A stretch of DNA of 64,000 nt from Dyadobacter sp. Leaf189 (lineage in GTDB: Bacteria; Bacteroidota; Bacteroidia; Cytophagales; Spirosomataceae): positions 1,547,999-1,611,998 of the forward strand of contig NZ_LMPS01000001.1 in assembly GCF_001424405.1 (NCBI RefSeq), written 5' to 3'. Below, in pieces: positions 61,807 to 62,427 of the stretch (within the stretch, counting starts at the first letter, position 1; every line of letters begins with the position of its first letter). The notes under the pieces are model-generated. The model saw only the letters and a program-made list of their open reading frames with translations, was not told the origin of the DNA and did not search any database. The translations under genes were made by a program, and so were the position numbers.

Positions 61807-61836
61807 TTGTAATCAATAATAATAATACTAGTTTTG
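61807..61836 (+). promoter_or_regulatory. Bacteroidota-type promoter for the tRNA array
   Basis: TTG at 61807-61809 and TAGTTTTG at 61829-61836 are 19 nt apart, a strong match to the TTG / TAnnTTTG pattern. They lie 36 nt before the first tRNA-like unit, at a suitable distance for a leader. Confidence 0.6.
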
Positions 61837-61872: not shown

Positions 61873-61974
61873 GGTTTGGTAGTTCAGTTGGTTAGAATAC
61901 ATGCCCGGGCCGCGTAGGCTGGAATGCATGGGGTCGCGGACTTCCGCAGCCCGGTTCGAGTCCCGTCCAGTCCG
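61873..61974 (+). pseudogene. tRNA-Asp-derived expanded unit 1, GGA anticodon
   Basis: 102 nt instead of 74. It starts with the same 32 nt as the normal tRNA-Asp genes (acceptor GGTTTGG, D arm, anticodon stem CATGC). A 14-nt insert (CCGGGCCGCGTAGG) then enters the anticodon loop, and a second (ACTTCCGCAGCCCG) the T-arm. The loop reads CTGGAAT, so the anticodon would be GGA (serine) instead of GTC. The acceptor 3' side is CCAGTCC, one mismatch against GGTTTGG, and the T stem no longer pairs. It is probably not a working aspartate tRNA, although the two inserts are complementary to each other. Confidence 0.6.
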
Positions 61975-61999
61975 GCAATTTTGAAAGTTTGTAATATCT

Positions 62000-62073
62000 G
62001 GTTTGGTAGTTCAGTTGGTTAGAATACATGCCTGTCACGCATGGGGTCGCGGGTTCGAGTCCCGTCCAGACCG
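62000..62073 (+). tRNA. tRNA-Asp (anticodon GTC), intact
   Basis: 74 nt cloverleaf. Acceptor GGTTTGG/CCAGACC (one G-U), D arm GTTC/GAAT, anticodon stem CATGC/GCATG with loop CTGTCAC (anticodon GTC at 62034-62036), T arm GCGGG-TTCGAGT-CCCGT, discriminator G73. CCA follows directly at 62074-62076. All stems pair, so it should be functional. Confidence 0.95.
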
Positions 62074-62105
62074 CCAGAAATTTTAAGTTTAGTTCTTTAA
62101 GTATT

Positions 62106-62222
62106 GGTTTGGTAGTTCAGTTGGTTAGAATACATGCCCGGGCCGCGTAGGCTGTCACGCATGGGGTCACGGACTTCCGCAGCCCGGTTCAAGCCCCGCC
62201 GGGTGGCCGTATCCCCAGACCG
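62106..62222 (+). pseudogene. tRNA-Asp-derived expanded unit 2, GTC anticodon
   Basis: 117 nt. It carries the same two roughly 14-nt inserts as unit 1 at the same sites but keeps the aspartate loop CTGTCAC (anticodon GTC, 62154-62156). A third insert of about 15 nt (containing CCGGGTGGCC) lies between the T arm and the acceptor 3' strand, and the T loop has changed to TTCAAGC. The acceptor strand CCAGACC and a following CCA are intact. The broken T arm makes normal function doubtful; processing of the inserts would be needed. Confidence 0.6.
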
Positions 62223-62254
62223 CCAGAGATTTTAAGTTAAGTTCTTTAAGTATT

Positions 62255-62328
62255 GGTTTGGTAGTTCAGTTGGTTAGAATACATGCCTGTCACGCATGGG
62301 GTCGCGGGTTCGAGTCCCGTCCAGACCG
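62255..62328 (+). tRNA. tRNA-Asp (anticodon GTC), intact
   Basis: 74 nt, identical to the copy at 62000-62073 through the whole cloverleaf (anticodon GTC at 62289-62291). It is followed by CAGA, so CCA is not encoded here. It is the last unit of the array, directly before a terminator. Confidence 0.95.
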
Positions 62329-62331
62329 CAG

Positions 62332-62358
62332 AAAAGCTCAGAGAGATCTGAGCTTTTT
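62332..62358 (+). terminator. Rho-independent terminator of the tRNA array
   Basis: AAAAGCTCAGA and TCTGAGCTTTT form an 11-bp stem with loop GAGA, ending in a T-run. It starts 3 nt after the last tRNA. Confidence 0.85.
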
Positions 62359-62427
62359 GTATTTTAGCGGTATGAGAAAGCCGGCTTTTATTTGAAGCCG
62401 GCTTTTGATCACAAATTTCCAAATTGA

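Follow-up and report, generated by a model that had tools for sequence, protein, structure and literature searches.

Bacterial tRNA arrays may hold pseudo-tRNA genes, which are extra degenerate copies standing beside normal genes in one operon. Elhai et al. reportedly described, in 2008, the SDR5 elements of cyanobacteria, which are said to be very small, mobile, repeated and hairpin-forming, and are not known to have an enzyme of their own. According to papers that cite them (PMC4390886, PMC3733652), SDR5 elements insert precisely inside HIP1. The GC clusters of yeast mitochondria (GC42) are characterised as GC-rich hairpins whose units merge and are shuffled, and whose mechanism of spread is unsettled (PMC4478555). 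The REP/RAYT system (GTAG and CGTC superfamilies) consists of 20-40 bp palindromes with an end tag, and CGTC types have been reported from Bacteroidetes (PMC3733652). Palindromes of Fusarium mitochondria offer a further comparison (PMC7218506).

The locus described here, nt 61873-62328 of the window (i.e. the whole 64-kb stretch of Dyadobacter sp. Leaf189 DNA that was analysed), is an array of four tRNA-Asp units with one likely promoter before it and one terminator-like hairpin after it. The preferred reading, to which we assign a probability of roughly 0.6, is that units 1 and 3 are non-decoding tRNA-Asp pseudogenes that arose through tandem duplication and into which a 14-nt hairpin repeat characteristic of Dyadobacter has spread. 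The features of the array and its flanks are as follows.

61829..61836, + strand: putative promoter element TAGTTTTG, fitting TAnnTTTG; read directly, this promoter type being scored by no tool
61873..61974, + strand: unit 1, 102 nt, expanded pseudo-tRNA-Asp with two 14-nt inserts, a changed anticodon and one acceptor mismatch
61906..61919, + strand: insert in unit 1 between tRNA positions 32 and 33, 14-nt hairpin CGG-GCC-GCGTA-GGC
61939..61952, - strand: T-stem insert of unit 1, 14 nt, an imperfect form of the repeat, CGG-GCT-GCGGA-AGT, on the - strand (match by eye)
62000..62073, + strand: unit 2, 74 nt, normal tRNA-Asp(GTC), called by ARAGORN and Rfam
62106..62222, + strand: unit 3, 117 nt, expanded pseudo-tRNA-Asp with inserts of 14, 14 and 15 nt and a complete acceptor stem
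62139..62152, + strand: anticodon-loop insert of unit 3, 14-nt hairpin CGG-GCC-GCGTA-GGC
62172..62185, - strand: T-stem insert of unit 3, 14 nt, identical in its letters to that of unit 1
62199..62213, + strand: third insert of unit 3, 15 nt, at the junction of T-arm and acceptor stem
62255..62328, + strand: unit 4, 74 nt, normal tRNA-Asp(GTC), called by ARAGORN and Rfam
62331..62358, + strand: terminator-like hairpin of the array (scan: one found, 1.0 expected in shuffles)

The four-unit structure proposed in the initial annotation stands, with a common start of 33 nt where that annotation gave 32. Units 2 and 4, which it had described as identical and normal 74-nt tRNA-Asp(GTC) genes, do agree in every letter, and ARAGORN and Rfam call both (66.4 bits each). 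ARAGORN makes no call on unit 1 or unit 3, and the Rfam tRNA scores of these units (24.8 and 19.5 bits, respectively) lie below the cut-off of 29. The inserts of about 14 nt that it had placed in the anticodon loop and T-arm of units 1 and 3, with a third in unit 3, were all recovered, the third measuring 15 nt; the insert between positions 32 and 33 has the same letters in both units. As also stated there, the spacers 3' of units 2 and 3 both measure 32 nt and hardly differ from each other (that 3' of unit 1 is 25 nt and different), and its proposal that the array grew by tandem duplication is supported. Neither unit 1 nor unit 3 presents GUC in a seven-nt anticodon loop, as both have 14 nt between positions 32 and 33. 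Unit 1 is altered in the anticodon region itself, where it reads TGGAAT and the other units TGTCAC (D. crusticola unit 1 has TGGAAC at this place), and is mismatched at acceptor pair 3-70. Clear homology to tRNA-Asp combined with the loss of features needed for function, which is what identifies a tRNA pseudogene, is thus found in both units. An alternative is that the inserts are introns, whose removal from the precursor would give a normal tRNA-Asp; one of them does fall in the anticodon loop, close to where tRNA introns usually stand, and a unit of normal length would remain. The usual intron site is 37/38, however, and not between 32 and 33; in addition, unit 1 would retain its changed anticodon and acceptor mismatch after removal, tandem runs of the repeat reach 44 units, and normal genes adjoin the expanded ones. 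Introns are therefore a very improbable explanation.

The element TAGTTTTG was assigned on TAnnTTTG, the consensus of the Bacteroidota promoter element; given its position (nt 61829..61836), unit 1 would head the operon. A sigma-70 scan returned three promoter-like sites against 1.1 expected in shuffles. Terminators similar to that of the array have been duplicated along with spare units in some other species. Past the array terminator there is a second GC-rich hairpin (nt 62377-62405, - strand), which gives a weak match to a threonine leader (21.4 bits, cut-off 55) and probably terminates the convergent gene, which is SusD-like (name by eye). A YrlA-like RNA was considered and rejected, as the Rfam match (nt 62041-62135, 28.8 bits against a cut-off of 69) runs from the last part of unit 2 into the first part of unit 3 and is explained by their tRNA modules. 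Rfam scoring of 150 of the 300 first-look candidates in the Leaf189 genome gave 36 tRNA genes above the cut-off and four weak matches, namely units 1 and 3, one tRNA-like gene without a D-arm, and one match within tmRNA. The short tRNA-like gene lacking the D-arm (L157, C1:256358-256412) has a Phe-type anticodon loop (GAA, by eye), is followed by a terminator-like hairpin, and scores 28.8 bits, slightly below the tRNA cut-off.

The initial annotation had named the absence of the inserts from all other strains as an observation that would speak against it. This is not the case, as expanded tRNA-Asp copies are present in 20 of 48 Dyadobacter genomes; the strict pattern used matched 22, and two of these (G064 and G012) were discounted as chance because they lack the GC hairpin. 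The pattern misses some expanded copies, such as one in G017 (L015). A survey of 390 genomes of the order (22 Dyadobacter and 368 others) with the same strict pattern gave 17 matches, of which four outside the genus and two inside (G064, G012) have no GC hairpin by eye, and no expanded tRNA-Asp was recognised by it in the 368 genomes of other genera. The divergent neighbour of the array, presumably encoding a Nif3/DUF34-like protein, is 93% identical to that of D. crusticola, and the next relatives also belong to Dyadobacter. Among the loci of named Dyadobacter species, a tRNA-Asp gene or array occupies the same place beside this gene. What differs between species is the number of expanded copies per locus, which ranges from zero to four: some have one or two normal copies only (e.g. 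L039, L040, L044, L046), while D. bucti (L049) has four expanded ones. Several expanded copies are truncated (L047, L050, L055, L061), and in several species some stand behind a terminator, repeated along with a copy of it (L042, L048, L054, L061). The inserts in tRNA-Asp copies number 68, with 40 of 14 nt, 13 of 15 nt, 7 of 16 nt, 5 of 28 nt and 3 of other lengths; 45 are thus 14 or 28 nt long, and 60 lie between 14 and 16 nt. Insert sites recur between species, as they would after repeated insertion, but equally if old expanded copies had been inherited.

The repeat starts with CGG and a free NNN, continues with a loop that reads GCGYA or ACGYT, and ends in three letters that are the reverse complement of NNN, so that the loop is constant and the 3-bp stem variable; imperfect relatives occur too. 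Stems seen at the 32/33 site are CTC/GAG, CCT/AGG, CCC/GGG, GCC/GGC, TCC/GGA and CCG/CGG. Across 17 distinct inserts at this site, 94.1% of cells pair and all three pairs change on both sides, with a covariation score of 0.672 against 0.182 in shuffles (none of 500 reach the observed value) and at most 0.184 when slid. A set of 170 loci, picked either as homologues or with a pattern that specified no stem letters, contained 109 contexts of the form CGG-NNN-GCGYA-NNN, 41 of them with full complementarity, and 35 of the form CGG-NNN-ACGYT-NNN, 16 of them likewise, where about 1 in 64 would be expected, though units and contexts share ancestry and these counts are therefore not independent events. 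Chance seems to account for at least 4 of the 16 complementary ACGYT contexts, which are rich in AT and come from other genera or from outside the array. The GCCYA loop, which is outside the repeat definition, was complementary in none of its 26 contexts in the 170 loci, and in a wider set complementarity stays low for control loops and for the control prefix GGC. A covarying helix is a mark of non-coding RNA families and is displayed by the insert stem, but upkeep of a hairpin at the DNA level would give the same sign.

The same hairpin is found in other RNA genes. When the Leaf189 genome was searched with it, spare copies of 5S rRNA came to light next to the normal gene (C1:4851-4962), and they contain the hairpin in one orientation or the other. 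(Part of an rRNA operon of this genome, L153:1-2500, comprising 16S and part of 23S, reads N.) An expanded-5S query had matches in 28 of 48 genomes of the genus (inspection covered the fetched loci, not every match) and in 6 of 150 genomes of the family, all of them Dyadobacter; it reaches only near relatives of the inserts in the query itself, and 11 of the 17 Dyadobacter in the family set gave no match. After alignment to one normal 5S, inserts were found in 29 of 52 5S-like copies. They total 109 with overlapping duplicates removed, and 62 are exact multiples of 14 (45 of 14 nt, 11 of 28, 5 of 42 and 1 of 56), the remainder including alignment errors and imperfect units. Of 25 distinct 5S insert sites, 6 are within helices, compared to 42 of 111 for all gaps, in a site map that leaves out 11 of 114 inserts at eight near-end sites as likely misalignments; this is suggestive of a weak leaning to loops. 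Fragments resembling the 5' half of 5S, with extra letters, were noted by eye upstream of the normal 5S at L163, L166, L168, L172, L175, L177, L183 and L184, so that spare 5S pieces occur on both sides.

The most extensive run of units is in G013, where a spare tRNA-His copy, situated directly after the normal tRNA-His and a terminator-like hairpin, carries 44 exact head-to-tail 14-bp hairpin units in its anticodon loop (L190:1966-2581, G013:C2). In G063 the hairpin is found in two tRNA-Arg-like copies (isotype by eye), right before the T of the anticodon loop, and short intergenic runs of the repeat are present in G013 and G034. Two small contigs of the Leaf189 genome start in or near expanded 5S copies, making copy numbers there uncertain and giving some ground for suspecting artefacts of assembly. 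Expanded copies nevertheless turn up in named species that were sequenced independently and in assemblies of one or two contigs (G063, G036, G020, G017), and for this reason the chance that assembly error produced them is negligible.

The state of the host copies was assessed for 36 expanded tRNA-Asp copies, labelled as before or behind a terminator by a pattern match on the preceding 60 nt. Before the terminator (24 copies), 18 acceptor pairs are broken and 4 missing out of 168, and 137 are unchanged; behind it (12 copies), the 84 acceptor pairs include 10 broken and 25 missing ones. In the T-stem, 29 of 120 pairs before the terminator and 13 of 60 behind it are broken or absent, and the D and anticodon stems are for the most part intact. 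Behind the terminator, copies often start within a few letters of its T-run, which leaves little room for a promoter. The window copies are among the better preserved, the acceptor stem being kept in unit 3 and mismatched once in unit 1. In the case of 5S, the normal 5' segment is present in 18 of 18 normal copies and in none of 32 abnormal ones (28 with the upstream sequence in view; the 32 include one plain fragment behind an N, L153:5013). Because abnormal 5S copies are without this segment and acceptor pairs are often broken, the expanded copies are most likely non-decoding pseudogenes, and those standing before the terminator probably share a transcript with the normal tRNAs yet do not serve as tRNAs. 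The initial annotation had offered either a preserved function or a duplicated pseudogene. The second of these is favored by the broken acceptor pairs, the truncated copies, those stranded behind terminators, and the variation between species in copies per locus.

The first, a preserved function as processed tRNA or as regulatory or decoy RNA, is not supported, and was rejected as the main reading on account of such broken, truncated and post-terminator copies and of the folding of units 1 and 3, which is no better than that of shuffles (z -0.11 and -0.17). More broadly, the expanded units may be working RNAs (regulatory, structural, or decoys for an anticodon nuclease) with helices kept by selection at the RNA level. 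The compensatory stem changes would agree with this, as would the copies that stand before the terminator with a whole acceptor stem, and the slight preference of 5S inserts for loops. The largely unchanged pre-terminator copies could be explained by function, but also by recent duplication or conversion. Set against a working RNA are the 28 of 48 genus genomes in which expanded tRNA-Asp was not found (by a pattern that misses some), the copies that are truncated, broken at the 5' end or begin almost at the terminator T-run, the unremarkable folding of units 1 and 3, and the occurrence of the repeat outside RNA genes as well. Nor is there the conservation across relatives, with intact ends, that would characterise a non-coding RNA family, in view of the 20 of 48 genomes with expanded tRNA-Asp and the 32 abnormal 5S copies without a normal 5' segment. 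Selection on a working RNA is thus less likely, and a functional role for the expanded units is on balance improbable.

An alignment of G018 with G003 that covers 190 kb (main blocks 86-88% identical) shows no peak of 14-nt indels, with 8 indels of 13 nt, 7 of 14 nt and 5 of 15 nt. No such peak was seen round nif3 outside the array, the contexts there numbering 71 at 14 nt (of which about 28 are array inserts, by eye), 52 at 13 nt and 52 at 15 nt. General mobility in ordinary DNA is therefore not supported, and a genome-wide mobile element was rejected on the same two surveys. The alignment of G063 with G005 extends to 6.9 kb only, these being too distant, and two of its three indels longer than 6 nt are 14 nt, both at the locus used for choosing the stretches. 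The exact motif has 4 matches in 800 kb, two of them at one locus used to choose half of the stretches, and within the 64-kb window is restricted to the two array sites. Dispersal over the genome, as in very small mobile repeated elements, was not observed, the few intergenic runs being those of G013 and G034. Upstream of a radC-like gene, in a probable conjugative element (L196, L199; gene names by eye), the exact motif is common to G063 and G005, and the two genomes differ there by three insertions, each of exactly 14 nt, which do not have the letters of the exact motif. Insertion of 14 nt outside RNA genes is therefore rare but seen. Filled and empty sites between relatives are represented by these three differences and by expanded as against normal copies. 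No target-site duplication was recognised at the inserts, and no enzyme could be linked to the repeat. REP/RAYT copies lie next to a resident Y1 transposase gene. Matches to Y1 transposases were obtained in 13 of 14 genomes, the exception being G020, which has both expanded tRNA-Asp and expanded 5S copies, and the exact hairpin was near a Y1 gene at none of the 12 loci examined (of 43 matches). A link to the REP/RAYT system was rejected on these grounds.

The absence of a 14-nt peak in the 190 kb and round nif3 also agrees with an explanation that involves no element. The expanded copies would then be plain pseudogenes in which template switching at quasi-palindromes made and corrected the hairpins, with tandem duplication and gene conversion spreading the copies. 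The T-stem insert of unit 1 is close to the inverse complement of the native sequence right before it and is predicted to fold with that sequence. Correction of quasi-palindromes would maintain complementary stems in the absence of selection. Prefix, loop and the length of 14 nt are, however, common to four unrelated RNA genes and the intergenic runs, which local template switching from differing neighbours would not bring about, and this origin is considered rather unlikely.

Another possibility is that the 14-nt hairpin is a distinct and still active mobile element, among the smallest known, which inserts into the loops of structural RNAs and grows in 14-nt steps. In tRNA-Asp as in tRNA-Arg its site would be 32/33, and in 5S it would mostly enter loops or junctions. 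Given a constant CGG and loop, any complementary 3-bp stem would suffice, the agent reading shape and not sequence. Taken together, these propositions are tentative, and we regard them as possible but doubtful.

Under the preferred reading, that of duplicated pseudogenes colonised by the repeat, the following course of events may be suggested. Stable-RNA genes would duplicate, often with their terminators included, and the copies would then lose function. The 14-nt hairpin would colonise such dead copies, multiply in tandem and be exchanged between copies, spreading at the DNA level by insertion followed by tandem slippage and by conversion between copies. The stem may be kept because the hairpin, as a single strand or a cruciform, is what is copied or recognised, and candidates for its upkeep are copying in the hairpin form, recognition by an enzyme, and quasi-palindrome correction. 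Working copies would be purged of the hairpin, and dead ones would tolerate it. Survivorship may also contribute, in that insert-free duplicates would recombine away with the normal gene, and those broken by inserts would persist.

If this interpretation is right, bacteria carry, in spare tRNA and rRNA gene copies, a 14-nt repeat whose loop is constant and whose stem may have any letters that pair. It would offer a tractable system for studying the spread of very small repeats without known enzymes, the persistence of complementarity in inverted repeats of dead DNA, and the gain of helices by structural RNAs. Accretion models of the ribosome propose the addition of helices to structural RNAs, and were the hairpin an active element, it would illustrate, in organisms living today, how RNA genes grow one helix at a time. 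There is also a warning for annotation, as ARAGORN and the Rfam cut-offs passed over the expanded copies, whose number varies between species.

Literature searches on Dyadobacter or Bacteroidetes, and others on hairpins, repeats or pseudo-tRNA, gave no description of this repeat among the titles and abstracts examined. Of the systems introduced above, SDR5 resembles it in consisting of very short modules inside other sequences, but the Dyadobacter unit is 14 nt, is concentrated in spare structural-RNA genes, has freely changing stems and forms tandem runs. The GC42 clusters share the GC-rich hairpins and the merging and shuffling of units; they vary mostly in their loops and less in their stems, whereas in the Dyadobacter repeat the loops are constant and the stems change in complementary fashion, and GC42 differs further in being mitochondrial and longer, with an AG target (PMC4478555). 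Hairpin elements of sponge mitochondria are similarly found between genes and, in one species, inside rRNA genes, but they are mitochondrial, lie in the genes themselves and not in spare copies, and have, for example, a 10-bp helix and a 7-nt loop (PMC2800124). REP elements are likewise short palindromes in bacterial genomes, but the unit described here, a 14-nt CGG-NNN-loop-NNN, is not a palindrome of 20-40 bp with a GTAG or CGTC end tag, as REP elements are defined (PMC3733652). Unlike ordinary pseudo-tRNA genes, the Dyadobacter copies carry one shared hairpin and a 14-nt quantum, both in common with the 5S copies. None of these systems is known to join a 14-nt quantum to a constant loop with a free stem and to residence in spare structural-RNA genes, as the Dyadobacter repeat does.
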